DNA of 64,000 nucleotides from an uncultured Lachnospiraceae bacterium (GTDB lineage Bacteria > Bacillota > Clostridia > Lachnospirales > Lachnospiraceae): contig CACYPS010000002.1 in NCBI GenBank assembly GCA_902776305.1, forward strand, positions 56,570 to 120,569, given 5' to 3'. Positions 15,680 to 47,797 of the stretch are shown here, piece by piece. Each line of letters begins with the position of its first letter. Position 1 is the first letter of the stretch. The position numbers and the translations under genes were made by a program. Under the pieces are notes generated by a model. It saw only the letters and a list, made by a program, of their open reading frames with translations. It did not search any database and was not told the DNA's origin.

Positions 15680-16006
15680 TAAGAAACCCCTCGCCTTCCT
15701 GTCACGGAAAACGAGGGACGTATTATACGCGGTTCCACCCTGTTTGCAGTCAGGAATCCTTTCGGAAATCCTTATCCAGACTGCCACTTCATTTACGATT
15801 ATCACGGAATCACCGGGCCTGATTGGGGCCTCTCCGAGTTGGTCTTCGGAAAGAAACTGCACGGGGACGGTCATGACCGTCTGCTGCAGTTTCATAGTTT
15901 CGTGACCGGAACACTTCCAGCACCCGATCGGGGTGTTCCTCTCTGGGATCGTCCACTTCCTACTCTTCTCATCAACGATTTATATGAGCCGGCGAGCGAC
16001 TGTTTA
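15680..16006 (-). promoter_or_regulatory. T-box leader of thrS
   Basis: On the minus strand the leader shows a stem I region with AGTAGGAAGTGG and AGAGAGG, a candidate specifier loop GAA-ACT-A (ACT at 15897-15899, a Thr codon), and the T-box sequence GGGTGGAACCGCG (15728-15740). An intrinsic terminator (CCCTCG...CGAGGGG followed by TTTCTTATT, about 15680-15718) comes next. Uncharged tRNA-Thr would stabilise the antiterminator and permit thrS transcription. The specifier assignment is my reading of the stem and is less certain than the T-box itself. With the palindrome at 16077 this fills the gap upstream of thrS. Confidence 0.92.
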
Positions 16007-16041: not shown

Positions 16042-16076
16042 GTGCTAAAACACTCCGCATGCAGTTTCTGAGTATT

Positions 16077-16358
16077 GCACGAGTTACTGTTCAGCTGTCT
16101 ACTACGGCACCGGTATACGGATCTATCTGCTACGGCACCGGTATACGTATTCATCGGTAAACTCTTGTCCTGCCTTGCGAAACGAAAAACCATATCTGCA
16201 CTCTGTGTTCCCGCGTGTCGCTTGCAGCATACACTTAGTCACACAAAGTGCAATGGTTTTTGTTTCTCGTCAGGACTGCGAATGTTTACCGATCGAATAG
16301 TATACCGTTGCCTTATATGTGCTTGTGTCGGAAGACAGCTGAATAGTAACTTGCACGA
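16077..16358. repeat. 282-bp imperfect palindrome, family C copy 1
   Basis: The outer arms, TGCACGAGTTACTGTTCAGC and the complement of GCTGAATAGTAACTTGCA, continue inwards through GTATAC/GTATAC, CGGTAAAC/GTTTACCG, GTCCTG/CAGGAC, AAAAACCAT/ATGGTTTTT and TGCACTCTGTGT/ACACAAAGTGCA. The apical loop contains CCCGCGTGTCGCTTG. The left arm holds a 17-bp direct duplication ending CACCGGTATAC. The core recurs at 28222-28459 with paired base changes. Confidence 0.85.
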
Positions 16359-16376
16359 TTAAAATTCAAAAACGAT

Positions 16377-16443
16377 TCGGCGTTTCTGCCTCGAAGTGTG
16401 CGGTGCATAAGCGCTTTCCACAGTGAACGTCTGCAATCAGTCG
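16377..16443. repeat. diverged repeat B fragment
   Basis: TCGGCGTTTCTGCCTCGAAG, GTGTGCGGTGCATAAGCGC, TTTCCACAGTGAACGTCTGC follow the same order as repeat B at 23079 but with many substitutions. Treated as a degraded copy. Confidence 0.4.
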
Positions 16444-16449
16444 GAGGTT

Positions 16450-17472
16450 TTATCTGCCGAGCTGCCAGAATGCCACCGCACTTGCAGCCGCCACATTGAG
16501 AGAATCCACCCCGTGCGACATGGGGATTTTCACTGTGTAGTCGCAGGCGTCTATCGTCTCCTGCGTAAGACCGTCACCCTCCGCACCGAGGATCACCGCG
16601 AGCTTTTCCTCCGCGCAGACATTAGGATCGTCGATACTGACCGAGCGGTCTGTGAGCGCCATAGCCACAGTCTTAAATCCCAGTCCCTGAAGCAGCGCAA
16701 CATAAGAAGCCTGCTCCAGGGCTTCTGCCTGCTCTGAGCTGCTGTCCGGCATAGCACTGCGAGAAGCCTGCCCTCGATCTTCTGCCGGTTCAAAGCCGCT
16801 GCCATTCATCTCTGATGACTGCTCAGCACTATAAGCCGATTGTTCCGACGCCTCACCGGAAAGCATAGAAGCGCGCTCCTCCTGCCACCTCTCAAGGCGG
16901 GTCTTCTTATGGCGGGACGCTTCCGTATTCTCCACATACGTCCAGGGGATCTGGAAGACTGTCCCCATACTCACCCGGCTCGCCCTCCGATAGAGAGGAT
17001 CGCTGCAGGCATAATTCAAGAGAACGGCCTCCATGCCGAGAGCGGCGGCCGAGCGAAAAATCGCTCCCACGTTTGTCGGGTTGGTCACATTTTCAAGCAC
17101 TGCTATGCGGCGCTTCCCCAGGCAAATCGATTCCACTGTCGGGAGCTCGGGCCGTTTAAAGCATGTCAGGATACCGCGCGTCATGGGAATATTGGTCAGT
17201 TTCCGGATCGCATCCGAAGCGCCGATAAAGACCGGTATGTCGCCGAGGCGTTCAAGGACTTCGGCTGCTTCGCCCTCCGCCTGCGACCTTTCTACGAGGG
17301 CAGCCACCGGAACACAGCCTGCACCGAGCGCCCGTTCTGTTACCTTCGGACTCTCAGCGATGAAGAGGCCTCCGTTCGGCTCATAATAGTGCCGAAGCTG
17401 GTTCTCGTTCAGGCGTGCAAAGACATCGAGCCGCGGATCGTCAAAATCTGTGAGTTCAGAATATACTGGCAT
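16450..17472 (-). CDS. TrmH/SpoU-family RNA 2'-O-methyltransferase with low-complexity insert
   Basis: SPOUT-fold methyltransferase using SAM on rRNA or tRNA ribose. The N-terminal substrate-binding region (about 1-110) is followed by SpoU motif 1 (ENVTNPTNVGAIFRSA), motif 2 (ILGAEGDGLT) and motif 3 (IPMSHGVDSLNVAAASAVAF). Between motifs 1 and 2, roughly residues 195-265, there is a Ser/Glu/Ala-rich insert (SEQSAYSAEQSSEMN and similar) not expected in the fold's core. It may be a disordered loop. The ATG has GGAG seven bases upstream. The gene stands alone between a palindromic region and tRNA-Gly. The exact RNA target cannot be read from sequence. Confidence 0.85.
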   Translation of the reverse strand: MPVYSELTDFDDPRLDVFARLNENQLRHYYEPNGGLFIAESPKVTERALGAGCVPVAALVERSQAEGEAAEVLERLGDIPVFIGASDAIRKLTNIPMTRGILTCFKRPELPTVESICLGKRRIAVLENVTNPTNVGAIFRSAAALGMEAVLLNYACSDPLYRRASRVSMGTVFQIPWTYVENTEASRHKKTRLERWQEERASMLSGEASEQSAYSAEQSSEMNGSGFEPAEDRGQASRSAMPDSSSEQAEALEQASYVALLQGLGFKTVAMALTDRSVSIDDPNVCAEEKLAVILGAEGDGLTQETIDACDYTVKIPMSHGVDSLNVAAASAVAFWQLGR

Positions 17473-28221: not shown

Positions 28222-28459
28222 CTTTTCAGAATTTGACGGCTTGCTACGCACATGTACGAATATTCATCGGGAAACTCTTGCCCTTTCCTGCGAAACAGAA
28301 AAATACATATGCACTTTGCGTTCCCGCGTGTCGCTTCGCATACACTTGGTCACACAAAGTGCAGTATTTTTCGTTTCTCGGGCGGGCGGCGAATGTTTCC
28401 CGATCGAATATTGTACATGTTGCTTGTATGGCACAAGATAGGGTACTCAAACTGAAAAG
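28222..28459. repeat. 238-bp imperfect palindrome, family C copy 2
   Basis: The outer arms CTTTTCAG...TTTGA and TCAAACTGAAAAG run inwards through TGTAC/GTACA, CGAATATTC/GAATATT, CGGGAAAC/GTTTCCCG, GCCC/GGGC, AAAAATAC/GTATTTTT and TGCACTTTG/CAAAGTGCA. The apical sequence CCCGCGTGTCGCTTCG is shared with 16077-16358. Several pairs differ from that copy on both arms. The 556-bp gap upstream of groEL's end is filled by this, a tandem repeat and a terminator. Confidence 0.85.
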
Positions 28460-28466
28460 AGGGAGA

Positions 28467-28621
28467 GTTTCGCTGCGGCTGGTCGCCGCATAACCGATAC
28501 TGAAAAGCCGCGTCAGCTCACGTTCGCTCCGCTCACGTTTCGCTGCGGCTGGTCGCCGAGGTACCGATACTGAAAAGCCGCGTCAGCTCACGTTCGCTTC
28601 GCTCACGTTTCGCTGCGGCTG
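28467..28621. repeat. 70-bp tandem repeat, 2.2 copies
   Basis: Units start at 28467, 28537 and 28607 with GTTTCGCTGCGGCTGG. The first two differ at a few bases. Each includes ACTGAAAAGCCGCG, whose complement CGCGGCTTTTCAGT lies at 28697-28711, so a long-range stem can enclose the groEL terminator. Confidence 0.8.
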
Positions 28622-28631
28622 AGCGCCCCAT

Positions 28632-28696
28632 CAAAACGTAAAAATAGCGCCGTAGGTGAGAGCAAGCTCTCCCCCGGCGCTTATTTTTACGTTTTG
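28632..28696 (-). terminator. groEL terminator
   Basis: CAAAACGTAAAAATA and GCGCCG pair with CGGCGC and TATTTTTACGTTTTG, with an inner GAGAGC/GCTCTC stem. It lies just after groEL. Confidence 0.85.
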
Positions 28697-28714
28697 GCGC
28701 GGCTTTTCAGTAAA

Positions 28715-30343
<1,629 letters not shown>

Positions 30344-43491: not shown

Positions 43492-43810
43492 ACTTCCTCC
43501 GGTCTGACATCAGGAACATCTCGTCGTTCCTGCCGTGCCGCGCAGAGTGCGAAGCACCTTTCACGTTCCTCCGATTTCTGCTATCTGCCTTACATCCGGT
43601 CGAAATCATTCATACTGTATCCTGTTGCAGCGATTTTCCCCTTTCGCTGCCACAGGAACCATTACGAATCACATCTTCCGTCCCGACTGTAAGGCTTGCG
43701 CACTCCCACAATCCTGTCCACATTCACAATTCGCGGGGTCCCTCCTCCACTTCTTGCTTATGCAGAGCGTGCGCCAAGTATCATTCTTCCTGCTCGCTAA
43801 GCGCTCGGTA
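43492..43810. other. 319-bp insertion-like gap inside the ireB-ruvX-DUF1292 run
   Basis: These genes are usually adjacent. The gap holds a diverged repeat B-like stretch (about 43508-43590, beginning with hairpin AGGAACATCTCGTCGTTCCT), a CCTGT...ACAGG hairpin with GCAGCGA/TCGCTGC, and the left arm of a long hairpin ending in ruvX. No gene is seen. Confidence 0.5.
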
Positions 43811-43838
43811 TCAGAATGATACTTTTGGCACTGTATTC
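43777..43838 (-). terminator. long hairpin overlapping the ruvX stop
   Basis: CCAAGTATCATTCT and AGAATGATACTTTTGG pair across about 25 nt; the right arm lies within the last codons of ruvX. It may terminate or stabilise ruvX mRNA. Confidence 0.5.
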
Positions 43839-44254
43839 GTCATATTATTAAGATAATCCTGCAGGATTATTTCCGCCGCGATCATATCCACATAGAGACC
43901 GAAATCGCTGCGCGGAATCCCGCATTCCGCCATGATCTCATCCGCTTCGACTGTCGTAAGCCTCTCGTCCACAAGAAAAACAGGGACATTCAGACGTTCC
44001 TCAAGTTCTTTTTTGAAAGCAAGAGTTTTTTCCGCCCTGTCCCCGACAGAATCATCCATATTTAGAGGATAGCCGAGCACGACCGATTCTATCTCGTACT
44101 CTTTGGCAAGCTCCTCTATTCTCCGGAATGTTCGCCGCATGTGGTTTTCCTTAGGACGTCTGATAATTTCAAGTCTCTGCGCGGTCATTCCCAACATATC
44201 AGAGACAGCCACACCGACTGTCTTTGATCCGTAATCAAGTCCCAGGATCCTCAT
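43811..44254 (-). CDS. ruvX: Holliday junction resolvase-like RuvX/YqgF
   Basis: RNase H-fold nuclease family (YqgF) implicated in rRNA 5' processing and anti-termination. The 147 residues show RILGLDYGSKTVGVAVSD, VVLGYPLNMDDSVGDRA, FLVDERLTTVEADEIM and DMIAAEIILQDYL, with the acidic active-site residues kept. The ATG at 44254 overlaps the ireB stop (TGATG). An upstream ATG at 44275 exists, but the shorter form matches family length. Confidence 0.93.
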   Translation of the reverse strand: MRILGLDYGSKTVGVAVSDMLGMTAQRLEIIRRPKENHMRRTFRRIEELAKEYEIESVVLGYPLNMDDSVGDRAEKTLAFKKELEERLNVPVFLVDERLTTVEADEIMAECGIPRSDFGLYVDMIAAEIILQDYLNNMTNTVPKVSF

Positions 44255-46549: not shown

Positions 46550-47797
46550 TTATTCACTTCTCAGCGCATCGATCGGATTCAGATTAGCCGCCTTAATGGA
46601 CGGCAGGATCCCGAACACGATGCCGATCAGCATTGAAAATGCCACACTCAGAATAATCGCAGGCACCGATATCGATACCGGCGTTGCGGTGACACGTGAA
46701 ATGACCTGTGACAGAATAATTCCCACCGCTACGCCGATCACCCCTCCCATGCTGGTCAGGACAGCAGACTCGGTGAGGAACTGGAAAAGAATAGTCCTCT
46801 TTCTGGCACCGATCGCTTTCTTCAGTCCAATCTCCGAAGTTCTCTCCGTGACGGATACAAGCATAATATTCATAACGCCGATACCGCCGACGAGCAGCGC
46901 GATGCTCGCGACCCATATCAGAAGATTGTTGGTGCTCGCGCTGAGCTCCTGCTTGTTTCTTGCTTTCTCCAGAAGGTCCTCGGCGCGATAGGAAATATCT
47001 CCGGACCCGGTGACCGATTGATTCATAATATTCTCGGCGTCTCGTCCCACCGAGCTCATGTCCTCCGTCCGCTTTGCACGAACGGAACAATTCTCCGGCT
47101 CATCATACAGGAACACAATCGGCCAGCTCGCATCCGGCATCAGAGCCATCCCGTATGCTTCCTGTGTATATGTAACATAGTCCTCGTACGATTCGATGAC
47201 CGGCTGGAACTTGTCTGCTTTCCGTATAAGCCCGACTACCGTGAACGGCTCGGTCCTCACCTCCACAATTTTCCCGATCGGATTTTCATCCGGGAACAGA
47301 ATTCCGGCTGCCGTTTCATCCAGCAGCAGGACCTTGTGAAACGCTTTGTAGTCATTTTCGGTAAACGGTCTTCCGCTGTAGACCTCATATCCGCAGGTCG
47401 ACAGATAATGTGTATCAATCCCCATCGCGCGCCCGCTGCTCAGTGATGCATTGACGCTTGTTATTCCGTCTACATAAGATCTCGTGACATAAAATGTGGC
47501 GTCCGCCGCCTGAGGCAGCTTTCTGATTGATTCTTTCTGTTCTTCCGTTACGGGACTGACCCCTGCGGGAAGGCCCGAATCCATATAATATTCACCGTCA
47601 CCCTGCCTTAAGGAAATAGTCACCGCATTGTTGCCGGCGCCGATCAGGTTCTGCATGATCTGTTCATTTGTCCCCTGAATCGTCGACACGATAGCTATGA
47701 TAGACGCGATTCCTATAATGACGCCGAGCATGGTAAGGAACGATCGCAGCTTATGAGAAAATATACCCTGAAAGGCAAGCCGTATATTTTCAATCAT
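46550..47797 (-). CDS. MacB/FtsX-type ABC transporter permease
   Basis: Membrane component of a mechanotransmission-type efflux ABC system. Topology: one N-terminal helix (LRSFLTMLGVIIGIASIIAI), a large extracytoplasmic MacB core domain (about 45-275), then three helices near residues 288, 335 and 380 with MNIMLVSVTERTSEIGLKKA and GARKRTILFQFLTESAV, typical of the family. It ends NLNPIDALRSE, also characteristic. ATG 47797 is used (GGGAGG upstream); 47800 is equally in frame. The operon supplies the ATPase and a fusion adaptor. Confidence 0.93.
   Translation of the reverse strand: MIENIRLAFQGIFSHKLRSFLTMLGVIIGIASIIAIVSTIQGTNEQIMQNLIGAGNNAVTISLRQGDGEYYMDSGLPAGVSPVTEEQKESIRKLPQAADATFYVTRSYVDGITSVNASLSSGRAMGIDTHYLSTCGYEVYSGRPFTENDYKAFHKVLLLDETAAGILFPDENPIGKIVEVRTEPFTVVGLIRKADKFQPVIESYEDYVTYTQEAYGMALMPDASWPIVFLYDEPENCSVRAKRTEDMSSVGRDAENIMNQSVTGSGDISYRAEDLLEKARNKQELSASTNNLLIWVASIALLVGGIGVMNIMLVSVTERTSEIGLKKAIGARKRTILFQFLTESAVLTSMGGVIGVAVGIILSQVISRVTATPVSISVPAIILSVAFSMLIGIVFGILPSIKAANLNPIDALRSE

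Follow-up and report, generated by a model that had tools for sequence, protein, structure and literature searches.

Two long palindromes in a Lachnospiraceae genome as probable copies of a MITE-like repeat family with covarying arms

What keeps the two arms of a very long palindrome complementary when its copies differ from each other along both arms? Compensatory base pairs usually count as strong proof that a functional RNA is present. The question is raised by a stretch of 64,000 nucleotides from an uncultured Lachnospiraceae bacterium (contig CACYPS010000002.1 of assembly GCA_902776305.1; the whole stretch is referred to here as the window), in which a first-pass annotation of the sequence alone had noticed two such palindromes. 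We consider it probable, at roughly 0.8, that both are copies of one non-autonomous, MITE-like family with terminal inverted repeats (TIRs) and a self-folding body, which has been moved in trans and whose arms are matched at the level of the DNA. The family would then be a candidate counter-example to the usual reading of compensatory pairs, in which strong covariation occurs together with the footprints of transposition and with no preference for G.U pairs or for one strand.

The two palindromes of the window

Both hairpins lie where they had been reported, the first at 16083-16350 and the second at 28222-28459, and when folded with RNA parameters both are far more stable than chance would allow: the segment 16060-16375 folds at -135.7 kcal/mol (z -11.4, with none of 100 dinucleotide shuffles as low) and the segment 28200-28480 at -113.6 kcal/mol (z -7.0, none of 200). 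Copy 1, a plus-strand element of the long type for which homologues were found, spans 268 bp and forms 103 pairs in one continuous hairpin of -122.7 kcal/mol. The first-pass annotation had drawn this palindrome at 16077-16358; the palindrome itself is real, but its bounds were set too wide, the excess being most of two 8-bp direct repeats of TTGCACGA. These repeats, at 16075-16082 and 16351-16358, are identical, abut the inverted ends and have the form of a target-site duplication; the same 8-mer occurs three times on the plus strand of the window, the third time at 47074. The left TIR (GTTACTGTTCAGCTGTC; 17 bp, 16083-16099, plus strand) is answered at 16334-16350 by a right TIR on the minus strand, which reads GACAGCTGAATAGTAAC on the plus strand and has one mismatch to the complement of the left end. 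The 5' arm contains a partial tandem duplication (16102-16147, plus strand) in which CTACGGCACCGGTATACG occurs twice, and an alignment inspected by eye indicates about four units of this repeat in the orthologue of copy 1 in the relative G022. A conserved core, defined by the alignment of 22 cores, occupies 16146-16299 on the plus strand, with internal loops CTCTTG/TGCGAAT and TGCGAAA/TTTCTCG and with the apex TTCCCGCGTGTCGC...GCATACACTTAGTCAC.

Copy 2 (28222-28459, plus strand) is likewise of the long type, with 94 pairs and a fold of -101.1 kcal/mol. It is 79% identical to copy 1 across positions 52-243 of the copy 1 query and has the core in common (28259-28410, plus strand, placed by the core alignment and by model matches), but its outer arms differ (CTTTTCAG/CTGAAAAG), and no target-site duplication was identified at its flanks. 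The differences in the stem that had been described as changing both arms together can all be found in the sequence, namely CGGTAAAC/GTTTACCG against CGGGAAAC/GTTTCCCG, GTCC/GGAC against GCCC/GGGC, and AAAAACCAT/ATGGTTTTT against AAAAATAC/GTATTTTT.

The neighbours of copy 1 are a gene for a SpoU-family methyltransferase (16450-17472, minus strand) and thrS with its T-box leader, and those of copy 2 are groEL (28715-30337, minus strand) and a gene of the DUF6106 family. Two ORFs that cross the palindromes match no Pfam family. The T-box leader upstream of thrS (15711-15984, minus strand) scored 63.3 bits (E 2.9e-13; the Rfam gathering score is 93), and elsewhere in the window a Clostridiales-1 RNA at 43684-43839 (minus strand) scored 48.2 bits, just over its gathering score of 48. 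The segment adjoining copy 1 at 16364-16447 is another dispersed repeat, which among the matches listed has 7 places in G018, G033 and G035.

Occurrence and architecture of the family

A DNA-level search of the window's own genome returned 35 matches, which in our reading represent 19 distinct places, among them two where the element is the truncated first member of a tandem pair and two that are without the apex; the other matches are partial arms and reverse-strand self matches. The "second copy" of the first-pass annotation therefore exists, but as a number it was an undercount. The exact apical pattern was found in 11 stretches of GTDB genomes, ten of them in the Lachnospiraceae MAG RGIG2452 from goat ileum and one in the MAG UBA3638, and in none of the viral contigs, and copy 1 as a query gave no match in the phage and plasmid collections (blastn, distant settings, E<=1e-5).

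The covariance-model search of relatives that had been proposed in the first-pass annotation was run with a model built from 22 long-type cores and a second one made for a shorter type of element. Strict filters were applied, with 72 candidates scored per genome in the 42 genomes of the genus and 7-8 per genome in 397 genomes of the family. The long-type model matched 9 of the 42, the window's own genome included, and none of the 396 others sampled from the family; the own genome was also the sole match of the short-type model among the 397. As far as we have searched, the repeat is found only in one uncultured bacterial genus.

The long type is present in the window's genome and in G022, G005, G011, G033 and G035. 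Genomes G003, G018 and G025 carry mainly the shorter type, of ~200 bp, and G025 has one long-type copy as well. In the short type the outer stem is retained, as is the inner loop TGCGA/TCTCGG, and a simple palindrome takes the place of the apical part; G025 has at least 150 matches of this type, all 150 of the scored candidates having matched, one of them only partly. The TIRs read about GTTACTATTCAGCTGCC in the long type and GTAACAGTTCAGACAGGCTG in the short type, and the end motifs written as paired sequences are GTWACWRTTCAG / CTGAAYWGTWAC. Partial duplications of an arm are recurrent, and both nested and tandem copies are present. The elements are short, have no coding capacity and occur in many copies, as do MITEs.

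Footprints of transposition

A non-autonomous palindromic mobile element had been among the first candidates for these loci, and it is supported by inverted ends, by an 8-bp target-site duplication and by copy numbers that range from tens of copies to at least 150 matches in one genome. In the window's genome 19 of the 22 end-motif matches (up to two mismatches) lie, by our reading, at these elements, and a reversed-pattern control gave 5 matches; in G025 there are 238 end matches against 0 for the same kind of control, so that TIRs of the sort expected of a MITE are evident. Among the 111 copies that had both ends recognisable and enough flank, some of which are mutual orthologues, the flanking 8-mers agree at six or more positions in 21, where 0.59 would be expected from mismatched copy pairs; these 21 include at least two pairs of orthologues, which leaves at most 19 independent sites. 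The per-base match between the flanks peaks at a width of 8 (0.390, as compared with 0.328 at 7, 0.280 at 9 and 0.251 in the control), and the duplication is thus of fixed length, as in MITEs. A recognisable duplication has been kept in only those 21 of the 111 copies, and three are perfect at 8/8, that of copy 1 being one of them; the nine long-type copies score 8, 7, 2, 3, 1, 5, 7, 2 and 3 out of 8. Footprints of this kind would be left by a cut-and-paste transposase of the DDE type that moved the copies in trans and cut its targets with an 8-bp stagger, an enzyme that might now be absent from these genomes or unrecognised in them.

The check for empty sites in relatives produced no clean pre-insertion site; the projection of flanks gave ambiguous cases only, with uninformative alignments. 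At the locus of copy 2, the element of G022 (L161) is a truncated remnant, cut off in the alignment directly behind the GCGAA internal loop; in G001 another palindrome occupies the place, and G025 and G018 have a short intergenic stretch only.

Two core-less mini palindromes in G025 (L262 and L267) consist of inverted ends only and are flanked by 8-bp duplications, matching at 8/8 positions for the one of 64 bp and at 7/8 for the one of 65 bp; three other small copies (63, 67 and 91 bp) have no duplication. Since such mini elements carry duplications but no core, the core may be dispensable for transposition, which would leave its conservation unexplained. The inverted ends would thus define the transposable unit, and the core might be carried along as a passenger or serve as an accessory; the alternative is that the minis had cores when they inserted and lost them later. 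We also considered a separate family of core-less palindromes and rejected it, as 84 of 100 CAGTTCAGAC-type ends at loci fetched from G025, G018 and G003, a count biased by the choice of these loci for carrying elements, have a recognised core no more than 260 bp away; the other 16 belong mostly to truncated, tandem or mini copies.

Candidates for the mobilizing enzyme

Matches to IS66 are present in 4 of the 9 genomes that carry the repeat and in 6 of the 33 that do not, with none in G025, G018, G022, G005 or G011, and neither these ends (up to three mismatches in 17) nor the core occurs in the fetched flanks of the 12 IS66 genes inspected. The idea of an IS66-derived MITE was rejected for lack of clean co-occurrence and of matching ends at those 12 loci. 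Y1 transposase (Y1_Tnp) matches are more widespread, occurring in 8 of the 9 positive genomes (in some only as fragments) and in 14 of the 33 negative ones. They are absent from G011, which has one copy of the repeat, and with the same tolerance for mismatches the fetched flanks of all 14 Y1 genes inspected lack both the ends and the core, so that Y1_Tnp as the mover was set aside as well. Single-strand transposition of the Y1 kind is not known to produce an 8-bp target duplication.

These observations bear on a proposal in which the repeats would be REPIN- or REP-like sequences that a RAYT (Y1) transposase mobilises in the form of single-stranded hairpins. There is a resemblance, and the distribution of Y1 matches among the positive genomes might be taken in its favor: REPINs, as described in PMC3116915, are high-copy extragenic palindromes with conserved segments and a variable, hairpin-forming spacer in which compensatory changes are common. 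A REPIN is, however, a doublet of short REPs, whereas the present elements are 200-280 bp long with the ends of a TIR element, with 8-bp duplications and with no linked RAYT seen. Together with the Y1 genes in genomes that have no repeats, the lack of them in G011 and the flanks of the 14 inspected genes, the 8-bp duplications make the REPIN proposal highly improbable.

By eye, no transposase is apparent in the ORFs of six stretches between close copies (L240-L245). In the window's genome, which is 97% complete, the end motifs occur almost only at the elements and no autonomous element was seen, and among the ~100 of 238 ends listed for G025 there is no plus/minus pair of ends 1-3 kb apart that is without a core or a nearer partner, in assemblies that are incomplete. 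Orphan MITEs often have no autonomous element of matching ends. The family would add a repeat that can be recognised in Lachnospiraceae genomes, and it might provide a lead to a new transposase.

Covariation in the cores and apices

The 22 long-type cores align with 55 predicted pairs, 23 of which have changes on both sides, and 97.7% of their cells are paired as compared with 88.8% in shuffles. None of 500 shuffles reached the observed values for cells paired, pairs, cells or score, and the covariation suspected from two copies is in this way borne out on four measures; on a further one, the count of further pair types, the result is not significant (81 of the 500 shuffles were as high). As a control, the partners were slid by 1-3 columns, after which at most 6 compensatory pairs were left. 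In the same alignment the internal loops and the motifs of the apex show little or no variation.

The apices of the short type are far more variable in sequence. Located by motif in 95 copies, they comprise 80 distinct sequences, and nearly all of these are perfectly Watson-Crick paired: 654 of the 664 free-stem pairs in the 80 apices are Watson-Crick pairs, the remainder being 4 G.T, 5 A.C and 1 other. The corresponding 98.5% is an upper estimate, because the register was the one that paired best and mismatches on the loop side were trimmed, a choice that favors neither G.T nor A.C; four positions at the base were excluded from the wobble statistic. At that base a C.T mismatch has been kept in 77 of the 80 distinct apices.

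Pairing as RNA or as DNA

Covariation above chance and near-invariant internal loops are what might be expected if the palindromes were structured non-coding or cis-regulatory RNAs, present in many dispersed copies and under selection for their fold, and a location downstream of stop codons means that they are probably transcribed. Compensation at the level of RNA should, however, leave G.U pairs in excess of A.C, and there is no such excess to be seen. In the apices the counts are 4 and 5, and in 23 scored pairs of 102 short-type cores (that is, 23 of 24 predicted pairs and 102 of 103 cores, one core with a long insert having been left out) there are 17 G.T/T.G as against 33 A.C/C.A. Both sets of counts are small, which leaves room for a weak G.U effect, and in the cores single columns predominate (12 of the 17 G.T and 16 of the 33 A.C).

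The placement of the elements points in the same direction. It was scored for 98 of the 103 copies (five with short flanks were left out) against mechanically predicted ORFs, those of fewer than 300 aa that extend into an element for over 100 bp having been dropped beforehand. By this count 94 of the 98 copies overlap no accepted ORF, and the 93 with neighbours on both sides lie between co-directional (68), convergent (15) or divergent (10) ORFs. In the 68 co-directional gaps the median distance of the element is 26.5 bp from the upstream stop as compared with 134 bp to the next start, the stop is the nearer of the two in 50, and the orientation is divided equally, 34 sense and 34 antisense. 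Such a division, in combination with the lack of a G.U excess, makes an RNA read from one strand unlikely, neither strand-specific placement nor tolerance of G.U being found. Rfam gave no match to the element at the gathering threshold across the whole window, and nothing credible at E<=1 for the region of copy 1 and one short-type copy. With TIRs and target-site duplications added to this, the structured RNA that had been put forward in the first-pass annotation appears very unlikely, and the pairing looks to be maintained at the level of DNA rather than as RNA.

The tendency of the elements to follow closely behind stop codons, and the position of copy 2 next to what appears by eye to be the terminator palindrome of groEL, might suggest instead that they are immobile, either transcription terminators acting in both directions or insulators at gene ends, and have grown long. 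Several traits speak for a mobile element, namely the common ends, the 8-bp duplications, the occurrence of nested and of tandem copies, and the lack of any match among the other genomes sampled from the family, and we attach very little probability to immobile terminators.

How the arms remain matched

If the family is a mobile one that is matched as DNA, its arms might be held in register by template switching from one side of the hairpin to the other, by conversion between copies, or by both, together with selection for the formation of a hairpin or cruciform, and the mismatched loops might be kept by selection for a protein that reads the structure. Selection on structure, or recombination and gene conversion, had been offered as the choice at the outset; the covariation is real, and as a pair of options this was right.

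Twenty-three orthologous copy pairs in G025, G018 and G003, some of which have a member in common, were compared. Differences amount to 4.5% at paired positions, 8.8% at unpaired ones and 8.6% in the flanks. Base pairs changed on both sides number 31 and those changed on one side 50, while by our arithmetic only ~2.4 two-sided changes would be expected if the sides were independent; 28 of the two-arm changes are ungapped, and by our count all but one of these, 27, give a Watson-Crick pair again. These changes are clustered: 12 of the 23 pairs have none, two loci have five two-arm and zero one-sided changes, and two more have four or five two-arm changes with three one-sided. At the locus common to L109, L089 and L097, three species carry AGCAATGC/GCATTGCT, AACAATGC/GCATTGTT and AAAAATGC/GCATTTTT, and the pairing is perfect in all three. 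For 7 of 22 pairs, one member or both have a closer relative among the copies at other loci than in the orthologue, which could reflect conversion between copies. Changes in blocks on both arms, as seen at some of the orthologous loci, are consistent with conversion or template switching, and the conserved mismatched loops suggest selection.

Mutation bias alone, through template switching at quasi-palindromes and with no selection on structure, would also yield changes in blocks on both arms. There is precedent for it in PMC8794818, where template switching is a route to multi-base two-arm changes that restore pairing and by which stems are created and maintained; the setting there is RNA genes, while here it is a mobile DNA palindrome that keeps certain mismatches. 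Under unrestrained correction those mismatches, the C.T pair of the apices and the loops TGCGA/TCTCGG, should vanish, and template switching alone would not explain their persistence, which renders an account by mutation bias only unlikely. It is possible, although we hold this only tentatively, that the mobile DNA family is selected to fold as DNA, that a putative protein reads the mismatched loops of the hairpin or cruciform, and that the tip diversifies by templated mutation of both arms; the last of these would account for 80 different and nearly always perfectly matched tips in 95 copies.

The arms are not kept matched everywhere. Between the window's genome and near relatives, 11 shared copies (ten compared with G022 or MAG RGIG2452, which are perhaps one genome, and one with UBA3638) have 72 one-arm and 4 two-arm changes, the one-arm count being inflated by the folding of 315-nt stretches that include outer regions; the excess indicates that arms drift apart in place. 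The family should thus be a good test system for how palindrome arms are matched, whether by template switching, by inter-copy conversion or by selection on DNA folding.

Relation to known repeats

Mobile units without genes that form long stem-loops are familiar from the Correia/NEMIS, ERIC/IRU and YPAL/RU-2 repeats, most of which, as described in PMC2229807, have TIRs and target duplications; the targets of YPAL span or adjoin a dyad symmetry. In the same account, those units are shorter than 200 bp and most have a terminal TA, whereas the present elements have no terminal TA and are set apart from Correia/NEMIS, ERIC and YPAL by the 8-bp duplication, the lack of a recognised mover, the conserved internal loops and the hypervariable, near-perfect palindromic apex. 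We found no published description of the repeat family in a literature search whose coverage left out much of the subscription literature, and the papers that it returned deal with other elements. The class, that of palindromic MITE-like repeats, is known; the present family is an unusual form of it and not a new RNA; what is unusual is the strength of the covariation without the signs of an RNA, around mismatches that are conserved.

Nested and neighbouring palindromes

Several other repeats were noticed in and around the copies. Four short-type copies (L260, L261, L264 and L232) have an extra palindromic module of ~90-120 bp (CAAGGTGCCTGATTCGTGC... or its complement), apparently branched, nested at their apex. 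The palindrome found in G001 at the 3' end of groEL (L162) reads GGGGACGGTCCTTTTGGGTC, and one that resembles it, GGGACGGTTCTTTTCAC, lies next to some short-type copies (L097, L088 and L200), either at a single side or at both, so that palindromes are nested in palindromes there. In the window itself, the region 28460-28720 beside copy 2 contains, by eye, a ~75-bp tandem repeat (GTTTCGCTGCGGCTGGTCGCCG...) and after it, downstream of groEL, a large terminator palindrome of nested form, and part of this region is absent from G022.
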